DNA of 41,090 nucleotides from a virus: the IMG/VR virus record IMGVR_UViG_3300033064_003260, positions 1 through 41,090 of that record. The stretch is one strand, 5' to 3'. The notes beneath the pieces were generated by a model. It made no database searches and was not told the DNA's origin. It worked only from the letters and a program-made list of their open reading frames with translations. The position numbers and the translations under genes were made by a program. Every line of letters starts with the position of its first letter. The first letter of the stretch is position 1. This document shows positions 1,114 through 41,052 of this stretch, one piece after another.

Positions 1114-1392
1114 GTGGACGCAGTCTTCGTAATCGCATTTGTGGCCGCTGGATGCCCGCCGTGCGACGACTTCAAGGCCGATCTCCGGCATGGCAGCATC
1201 GAGAACGACGTCCGGATCGTGGTCGTGGACATCAAAGAGCGGCCGGAACTCGTCGCCAAGTGCCGCGTCACCGTCACGCCGACGTTCGTGGCGATCCGGG
1301 ACGAGCGGCAAGTCTTTCGCAAGTCTGGCTACACCTCGACGGAGTCGCTTAACCAGTGGCTGGAGGACGTAAAACCAGTTGCACTGAGATAG
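1114..1392 (+). CDS. Thioredoxin-like protein with CPPC motif
   Basis: 92 residues, the size of a minimal thioredoxin or glutaredoxin. It shows the order beta strand (VFVIAFVA), active-site GCPPCDDFKADL at about residues 14-25, a second strand (VRIVVVDI), and the cis-proline loop VTPTFVAI, as in thioredoxin folds. CPPC is an unusual but known active-site variant. The GTG at 1114 is the only reasonable start. A role as reductant for a phage enzyme or in cytoplasmic disulfide exchange is inferred. The ncRNA promoter at 1379-1406 overlaps its 3' end. Confidence 0.75.
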   Translation: MDAVFVIAFVAAGCPPCDDFKADLRHGSIENDVRIVVVDIKERPELVAKCRVTVTPTFVAIRDERQVFRKSGYTSTESLNQWLEDVKPVALR

Positions 1393-1406
1393 CGTGTCCG
1401 TACAAT
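1379..1406 (+). promoter_or_regulatory. Promoter for candidate small RNA
   Basis: TTGCAC (1379-1384), a 16-base spacer ending GTGTCCG, and TACAAT (1401-1406), five of six to the -10 consensus. The predicted start near 1413 is two bases before the closing stem of the RNA at 1415. GTGTCCGTAC (1394-1403) is the same inverted operator-like string as in the promoter at 632-659. Confidence 0.6.
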
Positions 1407-1412
1407 CACGAC

Positions 1413-1492
1413 CTGAGTCGCGTAGCGAAGGCATCGGTTACTTCATTACGGAAAGAACCACCGAGGCCGCTTGTTCTCGCGACTCTTTTTTT
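1413..1492 (+). ncRNA. Candidate Y RNA-like small RNA upstream of TROVE gene
   Basis: The roughly 75-80 base transcript predicted from the promoter at 1379-1406 has its two ends paired: GAGTCGCG (1415-1422) is the exact complement of CGCGACTC (1478-1485), followed at once by seven T (1486-1492), a Rho-independent end. Inside, AGCG/CGCT (1424-1427 with 1468-1471) and TCGGT/ACCGA (1434-1438 with 1460-1464) extend the structure. Bacterial Y RNAs that bind Ro60 are typically short, closed by a terminal stem and encoded next to the Ro60 gene, as here. I do not see the animal Y RNA bulged-C consensus clearly, so the Y RNA label rests on position and architecture. Confidence 0.5.
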
Positions 1493-1511
1493 GTGCCAGG
1501 GAGACCTCGCT

Positions 1512-2786
1512 GTGAAGACGAACGTCAAGCCCGCTCCTCGAACTGAGTCGCCGCTGGTCAGGCTTCGTCGCAGTGTCCTCTCGTGCCTCCTGTGGGAGGG
1601 CGAGTTCTACGAGGCCGGCGAATCGATCGCTGCTCGCATTGTCGGACTCTGCCGCGAAGTGCCGCCGCATGAGATCGCCTCGCTCGCGATCGCGGCCAGG
1701 ACGAAGTTTCATCTTCGTCATGTCTCGCTGCTCCTTGCTCGCGAGGTCGTGCGGCACGGACACGGTCCGATGGTCGCCGACACGGTCGATGCCGTGATCC
1801 AGCGAGCAGACGAACTGGCAGAATTTCTGTCGCTCTACTGGATGAGCGAGCGACAACCACTCTCGAACCAACTCAAGAAGGGTCTCGCGAGAGCCTTCCG
1901 CAGGTTCGACGCCCACCAACTCGCGAAGTACAACCGCGACGAGACGGTGAAACTCCGCGACGTCCTGTTCTTGTGCCACGCCAAGCCTGTCAACGACGAG
2001 CAGGCGGCAGTGTGGAAGGCTCTGATCGACGGCACGCTCGCGACTCCCGACACCTGGGAGGTCTCGCTCTCTGCTGGTTCGGACAAGAAGGCGACGTTCG
2101 AGCGGCTGATCCGCGAGGGATCGCTCGGCTATCTGGCTCTGCTTCGCAATCTTCGCAACATGGTCGAGGCCGGCTGCGACCTGTCGCTCGTCCGCACCGC
2201 GATCCTGGCTCGTCGAGGCGCTCATCGAGTGCTGCCGTTCCGGTATGTCGCGGCTGCACGGGCCGTGCCGCAACTCGAACCGACACTCGACACGGCACTC
2301 CTGGCCTCGCTGCTGGACGTTCCGGTCCTAAATGGCAAGACGATCGCCCTGGTGGACGTCTCGGGATCGATGGTCGAGCCGCTCTCGCAGAAGTCTGACC
2401 TCATGCGGATCGACGCAGCGGCCTCGCTGGCCTCGATCCTGCACTGCGACGACTTGCAAGTCTTCACGTTCTCCCAAGGTGTCGTCGAGGTTCCGCCCCG
2501 GAGAGGCATGGCCGGCATCGACGCGATCATTCGGTCGCAGCCTCACTCCTGCACCTACCTCGGCGCGGCGATCGAGTACATCAACCGTCTGCCTCACGAC
2601 CGGCTGATCGTCATCACCGACGAGCAGTCCCATGACTCCGTGCCGTCGCCTGTCGCCGGCAGGATGGCTTACTTGATCAACGTCGCCTCGTGCGAGCGCG
2701 GCGTGGCGAACGACTCCTGGACTCGGATCGACGGGTTCAGTGAGAACGTGATTGCCTACATCGCAGAGATCGAGTCGGGTCGTTGA
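1512..2786 (+). CDS. Ro60-like TROVE-vWA RNA-binding protein
   Basis: 424 residues from GTG 1512. Residues about 10-265 form a helical-repeat region typical of TROVE (for example ASLAIAARTKFHLRHVSLLL and LRNLRNMVEAG), the ring that holds RNA ends in Ro60. Residues about 276-424 form a von Willebrand A domain with an intact MIDAS: DVSGS (D282, S284, S286), T348 and ITDE (D370). Family members bind misfolded RNAs and Y RNAs and in Deinococcus tether PNPase to RNA. It is shorter than most bacterial Ro60 (about 500-540). GTG 1512 is chosen because AGGGAG lies 8 bases upstream; a longer reading from 1356 would run through the small RNA. The MoxR-type ATPase downstream is notable because vWA proteins often pair with MoxR. 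Confidence 0.88.
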   Translation: MKTNVKPAPRTESPLVRLRRSVLSCLLWEGEFYEAGESIAARIVGLCREVPPHEIASLAIAARTKFHLRHVSLLLAREVVRHGHGPMVADTVDAVIQRADELAEFLSLYWMSERQPLSNQLKKGLARAFRRFDAHQLAKYNRDETVKLRDVLFLCHAKPVNDEQAAVWKALIDGTLATPDTWEVSLSAGSDKKATFERLIREGSLGYLALLRNLRNMVEAGCDLSLVRTAILARRGAHRVLPFRYVAAARAVPQLEPTLDTALLASLLDVPVLNGKTIALVDVSGSMVEPLSQKSDLMRIDAAASLASILHCDDLQVFTFSQGVVEVPPRRGMAGIDAIIRSQPHSCTYLGAAIEYINRLPHDRLIVITDEQSHDSVPSPVAGRMAYLINVASCERGVANDSWTRIDGFSENVIAYIAEIESGR

Positions 2787-3221: not shown

Positions 3222-4559
3222 ATGAGCAACGCAGCCACCACCCCCGCTTGGCAGTCATACAAGATCGGAACCGTCGTCACCGTCGCCGACGGTCGCGAGT
3301 TCACGATCACCTCGATCGACGAGCGGAAGACCTCTGGCGGCTACTCCAGCCGCCTGTACACGCTGTGGGGCCCCGACGGAAAGATCGTCGTCAAGACCAG
3401 CCGCAGCCTCACTCTGTGGATTGAAGGGAAGTCTGGAGACGAGAACTCGCCTCCGCCAAAGGAGCCCCAGGCCGTCGTCGAGGTCGAGGTCGATGCCTCG
3501 CTGGGCCAGGCCGCCGTCGAGGCCGATGCCTCGCTGGGCCAGTCCGTTGTCGAGGCCGAGGCTCGCGAGGTCGATATCTCGCTGGGCAAGGCGATCGCCG
3601 CTGCCGTCGAGTCCTATCTGTCGCCGGTGGGCAAGAGCGGAGTCGATCGCGACGAGATCGCCGAGATCGTGCGTGAGGAGATCGTCCGCGTCGGCATCGC
3701 CCGTAAGGTCGAGGTCACCCGCCACGACGGCACCGTCGCGAACGTGGGTGTCCAGCACTCGTCGTTCGAGGCTGTGCTGCGGATCGTAGCCCAGCGGATC
3801 AACGTCTGGCTCCCCGGCCCTGCCGGCTCGGGCAAGACGAGTGCAGCCGCAGCGGTCTCGGAGGCTCTGACCCTGCCGTTCTACGCTGTGAGCGTCGGGC
3901 CGCAGACCAGCCAGAGCCAACTCCTGGGCTACTACGATGCCAACGGGAAGTATGTCACGACGCAGTTGCGGCAGGCTTTCGAGCACGGCGGCGTGTTCTT
4001 GCTCGACGAGGTTGACGCGGGCTCGCCCGCCGTGCTGGTGACGATCAACGCCCTGCTGGCGAACGGCCATGCGTCGTTCCCCGACCGGGTCGTCGGGCGT
4101 CATCCGGACTTCGTTCTGCTCGCGGCCGGCAACACCTACGGCCAGGGTGCGGATCGGGAGTACGTCGGACGGCAGCAACTCGACGCGGCGACCCTCGATC
4201 GGTTCGCGGTCCTCGACTGGGAGTACGACACGGCTCTGGAGGCTCACTACGCGGGCCTGCCGCTCGATGTGTTCGAGGGCCTGCCCAAGGCCAAGAGGTG
4301 GAAGTTCCTGCCCGTCGACGACGCGGCAAACGTCCAGGCTCGGTGCGAGGAGTATGCCCGCGAGGCCGTGAAGATTCGACGGGCAGTGGCCGGCTTCGGC
4401 AAGGGGCTGCGGCTCCTCGTCGGTCCCCGCTCGATCTACAACGGGCTCGCCCTCATTCGGGCTGGCTTCAGGGTGCAGGATGTGCTGGAACTGGTTGTCT
4501 GGAAGGGCTGCGACAAGGACACCCGCGCTAAGGTCGAGCAGGCCGCGAAGGCTCTCTGA
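3222..4559 (+). CDS. MoxR/CbbQ-type AAA+ ATPase
   Basis: 445 residues. Residues 1-70 form a beta-rich N-terminal domain; residues about 85-125 hold a low-complexity linker with three DASLGQ-like repeats (DASLGQ, DASLGQ, DISLGK). The AAA+ core has Walker A GPAGSGKT (199-206), Walker B FLLDEVD (259-265), sensor-1 asparagine in LLAAGNT (304) and an arginine-finger region DAATLDRF (321-328), as in the AAA_5/MoxR group that remodels partner complexes, often through vWA proteins. ATG 3222 follows AGAAGGAAG. It has its own promoter block and lies just after the TROVE-vWA gene and before two paralogous unknowns, suggesting a functional module. Target unknown. Confidence 0.87.
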   Translation: MSNAATTPAWQSYKIGTVVTVADGREFTITSIDERKTSGGYSSRLYTLWGPDGKIVVKTSRSLTLWIEGKSGDENSPPPKEPQAVVEVEVDASLGQAAVEADASLGQSVVEAEAREVDISLGKAIAAAVESYLSPVGKSGVDRDEIAEIVREEIVRVGIARKVEVTRHDGTVANVGVQHSSFEAVLRIVAQRINVWLPGPAGSGKTSAAAAVSEALTLPFYAVSVGPQTSQSQLLGYYDANGKYVTTQLRQAFEHGGVFLLDEVDAGSPAVLVTINALLANGHASFPDRVVGRHPDFVLLAAGNTYGQGADREYVGRQQLDAATLDRFAVLDWEYDTALEAHYAGLPLDVFEGLPKAKRWKFLPVDDAANVQARCEEYAREAVKIRRAVAGFGKGLRLLVGPRSIYNGLALIRAGFRVQDVLELVVWKGCDKDTRAKVEQAAKAL

Positions 4560-4565
4560 TGAATT

Positions 4566-4583
4566 GTCTGGAGACGGCAAGCC
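4566..4583 (+). promoter_or_regulatory. Intercistronic GTCTGGA motif
   Basis: GTCTGGAGACGGCAAGCC, a member of the repeated family, starts 6 bases after the stop of the AAA+ gene and its last three bases begin the hairpin at 4581. Confidence 0.45.
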
Positions 4584-4617
4584 TCCCCGGCCTCGTTGGG
4601 CTCGGGGCCGGGGAGGC
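4581..4617 (+). terminator. Strong intergenic hairpin without U-run
   Basis: GCCTCCCCGGCC (4581-4592) is perfectly complementary to GGCCGGGGAGGC (4606-4617), a 12-bp all-GC-rich stem with a 13-base loop. No T-run follows, so it may be a pause, an mRNA-stabilising end or a processing site between the AAA+ gene and its downstream partner rather than a classical terminator. Confidence 0.45.
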
Positions 4618-4660
4618 GGGAATCGAGACGAGCCCACACACCGCACCGGAGACTTGAGAC

Positions 4661-5479
4661 ATGATTGACAAGGCCACGACCGTTGTGTTTGAGAGCGTCG
4701 GCGAATTCCTGGCCGATGCCTGCAAAGACTCCCACCCCGACTCCCACGGGAAGGGCGAAAAGGAGTTCCACGGCACGAACACGTTCCAAGAAGCCGTCGA
4801 TCTGGCGACGAAGGGCTGGCCGAGTGGCCGTCGGCGACTGGAGTCGCTGCGAGCCGAACTCGACGAGGCCGTCCGCAGGGCCGTCGAGGCCAAGGCCGCG
4901 ACTCAGCACTATGACGTTGTCGGAGACTACATCGACGTCGGCCGGGTCTTGGAAAGCGAGCCAGAGTGCTGCGGCTCGTACCTCGACGCCGAGGGTGGCC
5001 ACACCAGATCGAAAGTCGTGAAGATCGTCGCCAACGTGTCCGCCCTGGGCCGTGTCGAAGAGCAGCAGATTTTCTCCCTGGGCGCGGCGATCTATGCCGC
5101 GATCGATCTCGTCGAGTCGCTTGGTAGCCGAGTCGAACTCTGGCTCGGCTCTGGCTCGGAGCAGCGCGGCGGCAAGCGGCTCAATGTCCTCGTCAAGATC
5201 AAGGATGCGGCCCAGCCGTTCGAGGCCGACCGGCTCGCCTTCTACCTGTGCAGTGCGGCCAGTCTGCGACGGCTTTTCTTCAGCGTCGAGTGTCAGCGAG
5301 GCTTCTACCCGTCCTGCACCCGCACGACCTATCTGGATGCCGAAGAGGGGACGATCATCACGGCCGAGGCACGGCACGACGACCACACCCAGGCCCGCCG
5401 GATCGCCCGGGTGATCGAGACTTGCGAGGCCTGCGGTGTCCGGTTCAGCGAACAGGAACTGGCCCAAATCACGGCCTAA
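4661..5479 (+). CDS. Conserved phage protein, paralogue A
   Basis: 272 residues. It aligns by eye over its full length with the next gene (5561-6424): both have an FxxTxTFxEAVDLAxxGWxxG segment near residue 45, a D(V)xGxYIDVxRxLxxEPECCG segment near residue 85-105, a SK/SR-VVxI strand, and a hydrophobic AAIDLVESxGxRxE helix. This pattern matches an uncharacterised phage family often found near MoxR-like ATPases (possibly DUF7192; label from memory and unverified). No catalytic motif is evident. ATG 4661 begins at the expected point, though its Shine-Dalgarno (CCGGAGACTTGAG) is modest. Confidence 0.7.
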   Translation: MIDKATTVVFESVGEFLADACKDSHPDSHGKGEKEFHGTNTFQEAVDLATKGWPSGRRRLESLRAELDEAVRRAVEAKAATQHYDVVGDYIDVGRVLESEPECCGSYLDAEGGHTRSKVVKIVANVSALGRVEEQQIFSLGAAIYAAIDLVESLGSRVELWLGSGSEQRGGKRLNVLVKIKDAAQPFEADRLAFYLCSAASLRRLFFSVECQRGFYPSCTRTTYLDAEEGTIITAEARHDDHTQARRIARVIETCEACGVRFSEQELAQITA

Positions 5480-5490
5480 AACCAGGGGAC

Positions 5491-5519
5491 TTGCTTTTAG
5501 CCGACGTCGGACATATATT
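5491..5519 (+). promoter_or_regulatory. Palindrome promoter, short form
   Basis: TTGCTT (5491-5496), CCGACGTCGG (5501-5510) and TATATT (5514-5519, 17-base spacing). This copy lacks the upstream GTTTCTCA...GTGTCC half of the larger blocks. It separates the two paralogous genes and gives the second its own promoter. Confidence 0.7.
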
Positions 5520-5560
5520 TCCCTCAGTCAGACACAGCCCCGCCCAGGAGACCCAGACCA

Positions 5561-6424
5561 ATGGCCACCATCGTCAAGCGATTCGACTCAGTCCGCGATC
5601 TGCTCGCCGAGGTCACCGACACTTCGCGGCCGATCAAGTCGGGACTCAAGGTGACCTCGCAGGATAGGGGCCGCGAAGGCTTCTTCTGGACGAAGACTTT
5701 CGGCGAGGCCGTCGATCTCGCCCGTGGCGGGTGGGCCGAAGGCACGGCCAAGATCGTCAAGCATCGCGAGGCCTGCTCGGCATTCCTGGCCGCCGCCAAG
5801 ACCGCCAAGACTCGCGAGTTTGGTTGGGACGTCACCGGGCAGTTCATCGACGTCTCGCGGCTCCTGAGCGGCGAGCCCGAATGCTGCGGCAACGAGTTCG
5901 ACGGCGGCAACCAGATCGCCTCGCGAGTGGTCTCGATCCGGCTCAATCAGAGTGTGTCCGGCGGGATCAGTGCCGACACGATCTGCGCTCGCGGCGTCAC
6001 GGTGCTGGTCGCGGTCGATCTGCTGGAGTCGCGCGGCGTCCGCTGCGAGGTCACGGTCTCGAAGGGCTCGAAGAGTACGGGCTGTGCCGGCTCTGTCCGA
6101 AACTTGCAGGTCGATTCGCACGTTGTCGTGAAGCAGGCCGGCGACCCGGTCGACCTCGACAAGTTGGCCTTCTGGGTCGCGCACCCTGCCTCGTTTCGCC
6201 GGCTGGGCTTCCGGCTCAACGAGCAGAACGGACTCTCGCCCTGCGGTGCTCAACCGGCTCGCCTGAGCGACTACGGAGCCGACCCGAACGTCATCGAGAT
6301 CGACGAGATTCTGTCCGGTGCCAGCCTGAGCGAGAGGCAGTTGCGAGCCAACGTCCTGGCGATCGCCAAGGGCTGCGGCCTGGAGTTCAGCGACGAGGAA
6401 CTTGCGGAGATCGCCCGATCATGA
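5561..6424 (+). CDS. Conserved phage protein, paralogue B
   Basis: 287 residues, homologous throughout to paralogue A at 4661-5479 (shared EAVDLARGGW, GQFIDVSRLLSGEPECCG and VAVDLLESRGVRCEV segments). The pair implies an old gene duplication followed by divergence, each copy keeping its own promoter. Function unknown; shared context with the MoxR ATPase and TROVE-vWA protein suggests participation in that module. ATG 5561 lies about 42 bases after the -10 with CAGGAGACCC upstream. Its TGA stop overlaps the next ATG. Confidence 0.72.
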   Translation: MATIVKRFDSVRDLLAEVTDTSRPIKSGLKVTSQDRGREGFFWTKTFGEAVDLARGGWAEGTAKIVKHREACSAFLAAAKTAKTREFGWDVTGQFIDVSRLLSGEPECCGNEFDGGNQIASRVVSIRLNQSVSGGISADTICARGVTVLVAVDLLESRGVRCEVTVSKGSKSTGCAGSVRNLQVDSHVVVKQAGDPVDLDKLAFWVAHPASFRRLGFRLNEQNGLSPCGAQPARLSDYGADPNVIEIDEILSGASLSERQLRANVLAIAKGCGLEFSDEELAEIARS

Positions 6425-40737: not shown

Positions 40738-41052
40738 ATGGCTTACGAGAAGAGCAAAGTGTCGAACTTCGGCAGCGGCACTCTGTCGTCACCACCGCCG
40801 CTGGTTGGGTTTGAATACTGTCACCAGTTCTCGCGAGTGCCGGGCGAGGCCCCAGAACTGGGGTCGCTTGGCGAAGGCGAACTTGCCCTCAACACTTCCG
40901 ACGGCGTGGCGTATTTCCGCGCGGCCACCGGCGGCGCTGGCTCGTTCCCGTCGGCCGACGGCATCTTCAAGATCGTCTCCCTCACGCAGGCCGCCTACGA
41001 CGCCCTGGCCGTCAAGTCGTCTGCCACGCTCTACATCGTCACGGCGTCATAG
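40738..41052 (+). CDS. Tail-fibre-like structural protein
   Basis: 104 residues. ELGSLGEGELALNTSDGVAYF is the short collagen/tail-fibre knob-like phrase GxLxxNTxDxxxYF, and FKIVSLTQAAYDALAVKSSATLYIVT is the TQAAYDALxxKxxxTLYxxT motif common in phage tail fibres. It is a short tail fibre or fibre-assembly protein. The next ORF starts at 41068 with AGAGAGG upstream, so a tail operon continues. Confidence 0.65.
   Translation: MAYEKSKVSNFGSGTLSSPPPLVGFEYCHQFSRVPGEAPELGSLGEGELALNTSDGVAYFRAATGGAGSFPSADGIFKIVSLTQAAYDALAVKSSATLYIVTAS

Follow-up and report, generated by a model that had tools for sequence, protein, structure and literature searches.

The window, by which we mean the whole stretch of DNA that was analysed, is a 41,090-base record of an uncultured virus that carries phage-type helicase, exonuclease, primase and methyltransferase genes. 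Along its + strand, a candidate promoter, a short structured RNA, a run of seven T and a TROVE-vWA gene follow one another in that order. The RNA ends 26 bases, and the T-run 19 bases, before the GTG start codon of the gene, which is preceded by AGGGAG. The features of the locus are as follows:

1379 to 1406, + strand: candidate promoter TTGCAC-N16-TACAAT, matching 8 of 12 consensus positions; the -10 element and half of the spacer are kept in relatives L001-L003
1415 to 1485, + strand: putative Y RNA of the short-loop type, 71 nt, or about 80 nt if the T-run is counted, from the held-out covariance model R1 and the fold z
1415 to 1422, + strand: outer helix, 5' side, GAGTCGCG, pairing with 1478-1485; 8 of 8 pairs form in the window, and the helix covaries in relatives
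1423 to 1430, + strand: conserved internal strand UAGCGAAG, consensus UGGYGNAG with a bulged U; conserved in 165 distinct copies and recovered by RNAalifold
1431 to 1438, + strand: inner helix, 5' side, GCAUCGGU, pairing with 1460-1467 with one A-G mismatch; covaries in relatives
1439 to 1459, + strand: apical part UACUUCAUUACGGAAAGAACC, 21 nt; UACUUC is invariant in the aligned family
1460 to 1467, + strand: inner helix, 3' side, ACCGAGGC, pairing with 1431-1438
1468 to 1477, + strand: conserved internal strand CGCUUGUUCU, consensus CGCUUGUUCC, conserved across relatives
1478 to 1485, + strand: outer helix, 3' side, CGCGACUC, pairing exactly with 1415-1422
1486 to 1492, + strand: seven-T run past the closing stem, a terminator or leader attenuator read from the sequence; absent after the equivalent RNA in L001-L003
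1512 to 2786, + strand: putative Ro60 (TROVE-vWA) protein, 424 aa, GTG start, from PF05731, PHROG 850 and an AlphaFold model

The basic observation, a TROVE gene with a structured RNA before it, is confirmed. The TROVE domain matches PF05731 with 58 bits (E 1.3e-15, cutoff 23), the vWA domain matches VWA_2 slightly below its cutoff of 27 (26 bits, E 1.5e-5), and the whole protein falls into the RNA-binding protein family PHROG 850 (E 2e-40). The first-pass annotation had described an intact MIDAS, and its residues D282, S284, S286, T348 and D370 are indeed invariant in 39 aligned relatives. The AlphaFold model (pLDDT 88) resembles Ro60 with a Z of about 25 over 413 residues, the crystal structure of the Thermus phage phiLo Ro60 (PDB 9L5Y) with a Z of 24 at about 28% identity, and Deinococcus radiodurans Rsr (2NVO) with a Z of 19.4. 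Judged by domain content and predicted fold, the product is a phage Ro60. Further along the window, at 3222-6424, lie a MoxR-type AAA ATPase gene and then two DUF7192 paralogues. Among the fetched loci these genes are shared only with L003 and L004, a count in which L001 and L002 are short contigs, and we therefore rejected them as part of a general RNA-TROVE system.

The RNA is compact and its ends pair exactly where the earlier reading had placed them, GAGTCGCG at 1415-1422 with CGCGACTC at 1478-1485. The stretch 1413-1492 folds with -30.3 kcal/mol, a z of -4.0 against dinucleotide shuffles, of which 1 in 200 did as well; over all runs the fold z of the RNA is -3.7 to -4.0. Between one and five RNAs of a common plan lie upstream of the TROVE genes of relatives: an outer helix, UGGYGNAG, an 8-bp inner helix, UACUUC, a variable apical part, the returning inner helix, CGCUUGUUCC and the returning outer helix. 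Covariance model R1 was built from 43 short-loop relatives, leaving out the clade of the window (the window and L001-L004); it matches the window at exactly 1415-1485 with 66.2 bits (E 8e-17), whereas the runner-up reaches 12.7 bits. This runner-up, at 40899-40956, was rejected as a second Y RNA for want of a proper inner helix, and the model found no second copy inside the 41,090 bases. Another Y RNA may still lie outside the window, which is possibly incomplete.

Both helices covary in relatives, with compensatory changes, and the conserved structure in related phages that the first-pass annotation had called for is therefore present. A looser first scan by regular expression was dropped for its many false matches on both strands and replaced by a scan with fixed spacing. 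Extraction by the motifs, with pairing not required, returned 172 copies, every one of them on the gene strand. The inner and outer helices of the 165 distinct copies pair at 73-82%, compared with 45-58% after exchanging partners among copies and 24-47% after sliding the strands. In the alignment of the 43 short-loop copies, 85.9% of cells are paired (55.3% shuffled, 33-48% slid) and 16 of 16 pairs change on both sides; since this alignment came from a scan that favours pairing, we take the motif-only count as the unbiased version. RNAalifold recovered the identical structure unprompted, adding a bulged U and, above it, two pairs. The first of these pairs is A-U in the window and usually G-C elsewhere, a compensated change. 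The strand 1423-1430 is likely the Ro60-contact strand.

The proposed adjacency of Ro60 and Y RNA was borne out, as the RNA is linked to TROVE genes in phages and in bacteria. When all viral contigs were scanned with a pattern blind to TROVE, 16 of the 20 returned stretches had a TROVE gene beside the RNA. Good Y-like RNAs (61.9-64.3 bits) also occur in L144, L145 and L151, where the available contig sequence holds no TROVE gene; these are orphan Y RNAs or fragments, and one of the contigs measures 82 kb. The remaining TROVE-less match, L153, looks like chance. Among 149 Acidobacteriota genomes, the RNA model matches three (one of them the seed genome), all of which belong to the eight with TROVE, and in each the RNA precedes the matched TROVE stretch by 0.6-1.7 kb and shares its strand. 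The scan found no RNA copy at 18 of the 81 TROVE loci in viruses and at 7 of the 57 in bacteria, figures that partly reflect cut contigs and strict thresholds. Cultured phages with the Ro60-RNA pair are Xanthomonas phage Olaya, Caulobacter phage CcrColossus, Brevundimonas phage Kikimora, Thermus phage phiLo and Bacteroides phage crAss001, with the copies downstream of the TROVE gene in the last two. In phiLo (L175), Y-like RNAs at 3889-3956 and about 4078-4160 directly follow the Ro60 gene of structure 9L5Y. Acidobacterial and related TROVE loci (L115, L117, L121, L122, L130 and L136) carry up to five tandem Y RNAs, many of them with their own distinct tRNA-like module.

Because its helices flank a conserved asymmetric internal loop, its pairing is compensatory and its linkage to TROVE extends across phages and bacteria, we consider that the RNA of 71-80 nt is probably (at roughly 0.78) a Y RNA that serves the phage's own Ro60 protein and is produced along with it.

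How this RNA is transcribed bears on the reading that competes with it most closely. The sigma70-like promoter of the first-pass annotation is present in its elements, TTGCAC at 1379-1384 and TACAAT at 1401-1406 with a 16-base spacer; however, just 8 of 12 positions agree with the consensus, and a consensus promoter scan of the window did not report TTGCAC-N16-TACAAT. The stretch TAGCGTGTCCGTACAAT is identical in L001-L003 except for one of its first three bases, and its flanks differ more, such that the surroundings of TACAAT and the first RNA bases are kept. The candidate promoter is thus weak by consensus yet conserved in three close relatives. Of the supposed terminator, the seven T stand at 1486-1492, but they follow the long-range closing stem and no classic short hairpin. 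The T-run is not kept after the equivalent RNA in L001-L003 and is mostly private to the window; TTTT lies within 10 nt of the RNA end in 33 of 221 relatives and at 78 of 3,500 random sites, an enrichment that is not general. Since the start codon follows the T-run after just 19 bases, the gene is read from the promoter of the RNA or from one upstream, and the RNA and the TROVE mRNA probably share one transcript.

This arrangement would also suit a cis-acting leader of the TROVE mRNA, in which the protein binds its own 5' leader and chooses between an end at the T-run and read-through, an autoregulated attenuator that needs no free Y RNA. The RNA does lie within the 5' leader, with the T-run this close to the start codon and no fitting second promoter, and most viral relatives too have their RNAs directly upstream of the gene. 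Against such a leader, relatives carry two to five tandem copies per locus with very different apical modules, bacterial copies sit at a distance of about 1 kb, those of crAss001 and phiLo come after the gene, and T-runs are mostly missing in relatives. We regard this reading as unlikely overall. It is a serious rival for the window alone and leaves the tandem, distant and downstream copies of relatives unexplained.

A Y RNA partnered with Ro60 fits what is known of such pairs. Likely Y RNAs beside Ro60 were reportedly found by Chen in 2014 in more than 250 bacterial and phage species, and the Salmonella rsr-yrlBA-rtcBA operon is a bacterial example of YrlA with Rsr/Ro60. Unlike in Salmonella, no rtcBA was seen beside the window RNA in the domain annotation. 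Like YrlA (RF02553), the window RNA adjoins a Ro60 gene, has ends that pair, and combines GGCGAA, an 8-bp helix and CUUGU in its Ro-binding half; the same half of the YrlA consensus, as printed for the related phage RNA of L009, has GGCGAAUGC, an 8-bp helix and CUUGU before the closing stem. Unlike YrlA, it has no tRNA-like D, T and acceptor arms and ends in a 21-nt apical hairpin instead, an outline that presumably comes closer to second Y RNAs of the YrlB kind, which have no tRNA part. In the broad sense, too, it is built as a Y RNA, with 5' and 3' ends that pair around a bulged, conserved candidate Ro-binding stem. The Rfam Y RNA covariance search proposed at first pass did not recognise it: the window gave no match at gathering or permissive thresholds, and none within 1300-1600 at E up to 5. 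The L009 RNA scores 54.7 bits against YrlA (E 5.7e-12), below the gathering score of 69, and copies in cultured phages give E 2.9e-8 to 0.0075, all below that score. The window RNA is one of many phage and bacterial RNAs that escape Rfam. Going by its position and stem, it is a Y RNA and not YrlA.

Phage Ro60 and phage YrlA are already known (PMC7765460, PMC7824862), with examples of phage Ro60 in jumbo phages (PMC7824862, PMC7765460) and mycobacteriophages (PMC12363180). As in the Rsr-Y RNA-PNPase system of D. radiodurans (RYPER), whose function is described in PMC7790460 and PMC8394870, a Ro60-fold protein is paired with a Y RNA. According to PMC8394870, the tRNA-like domain of bacterial YrlA binds PNPase as a tether; in contrast to RYPER, the window RNA is without this PNPase-binding domain. 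It shares with vertebrate Y RNAs an end stem in which one strand bulges by a single pyrimidine and the other by more (vertebrate site: PMC4726728); the same paper denies homology between bacterial Y RNAs and the vertebrate clades, and the likeness is one of outline, not of sequence homology. Like phiLo, the window encodes a TROVE-vWA protein with Y-like RNA nearby, but its RNA is single, short-looped and upstream, whereas those of phiLo lie downstream. Y RNA-Ro60 pairs are thus known in bacteria and phages, and the window RNA is a stripped-down form without the tRNA-like half. As far as sequence comparison reaches, the identity of the pair proposed in the first-pass annotation is supported, and the pair may, as also proposed there, act in RNA decay or protection.

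For a Y RNA of this form, we propose that the TROVE ring would grip the RNA at its bulged internal loop, as animal Ro60 grips Y RNAs at the bulged lower stem. The bound RNA would stabilise Ro60 and mask some of the surface open to other RNAs, with the apical hairpin (UUACUUC) pointing outwards. Because it has no tRNA-like module, the window RNA would serve as a gate or stabiliser and not as a PNPase tether. Given the short distance from the T-run to the start codon, transcription would have to pass the Y RNA end to reach the TROVE gene; more RNA than mRNA would then be made, leaving room for feedback by the Ro60 protein.

Many relatives carry a permuted tRNA in place of the short apical part of the window RNA. 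These long-loop copies lie upstream of TROVE in L005-L140. ARAGORN found a tRNA in 1 of 119 distinct long-loop RNAs as written and in none after shuffling; with the loop written twice, which restores the tRNA order, it found one in 61 of the 119, indicating that many hold a circularly permuted tRNA. In many long-loop RNAs the tRNA appears to be opened between the D arm and the anticodon arm. A five-pair anticodon arm with a 7-base loop, U33 and a purine at 37 is present in 28 of 111 long-loop RNAs, and the anticodons of these 28 perfect arms are of many different kinds. A tRNA and tmRNA scan of the window returned nothing.

The window RNA might accordingly be thought a degraded relic of a tRNA-bearing, YrlA-type Y RNA that is no longer a working partner, the more so as many relatives have the permuted tRNA at the equivalent place, the window has a single RNA, as against two upstream of TROVE (both short) in L001-L003, and the inner helix of the window RNA has a mismatch. 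We judge this improbable: the 69 short-loop copies are a distinct, conserved class, the outer stem is perfect in the window and mismatched in L001-L003, and the clade keeps both the contact strands and the promoter. Least credible of all is a mere intrinsic terminator of the upstream thioredoxin-like gene with an incidental likeness to Y RNA, for although the stem and seven T begin 22 bases past the stop of that gene, the internal-loop sequence is conserved, relatives with other upstream genes show the covariation, and the model match has an E of 8e-17.

The short-loop class and its tRNA-bearing relatives together raise a wider possibility, which we put forward tentatively. The Y stem may be a modular Ro-binding handle onto which phages and bacteria have repeatedly grafted whole tRNAs with different anticodon arms, and phage Ro60 may display them as tRNA baits or tethers. 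Such grafts would be opened at the Ro stem, giving the permuted form, or, in crAss phages, at the acceptor end. Baits on phage Ro60 could act, for example, against anticodon nucleases, and the bare handle of the window clade would act on Ro60 alone, as a gate, chaperone or feedback RNA.

What Ro60, an autoantigen in humans, does in the cell is still under debate. Here, small-genome phages retain it together with a dedicated candidate partner RNA. Through the comparison, the Ro-binding stem of Y RNAs in phages and bacteria is now defined precisely and in a form that can be tested, for a family of over 200 copies of which those tested fall below the Rfam cutoff; the comparison also shows that the tRNA-like part of Y RNAs is optional. 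Since several cultured phages have the Ro60-RNA pair, the role of the phage Ro60 particle can be tested at the bench. The permuted RNAs and the normal-order tRNA Y RNAs of crAss phages merit more study than the window itself.

In crAss001 (NC_049977), unannotated tRNA-Y RNAs lie downstream of TROVE at L161:4558-4701 and about 4814-4952, and comparable unannotated RNAs follow the crAss TROVE gene in cr106_1 (L176) and cr112_1 (L177). Inspected by eye, the RNAs of all three have normal tRNA ends, D arm and T arm, with the Y stem inserted as an extra arm; they appear to be circularly equivalent to the permuted Y RNA-tRNA of other phages, with the opening at the acceptor end instead. Phage records label some stretches of Y RNAs as tRNAs: an annotated tRNA-Gln overlaps the Y RNA at L162:2047-2215 (CcrColossus), and a tRNA-Ser the one at L167:2691-2814 (Kikimora). 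Brevundimonas phage Kikimora also has a likely permuted tmRNA at L167:6266-6611, which matches RF04321 with 57.7 bits (cutoff 47).
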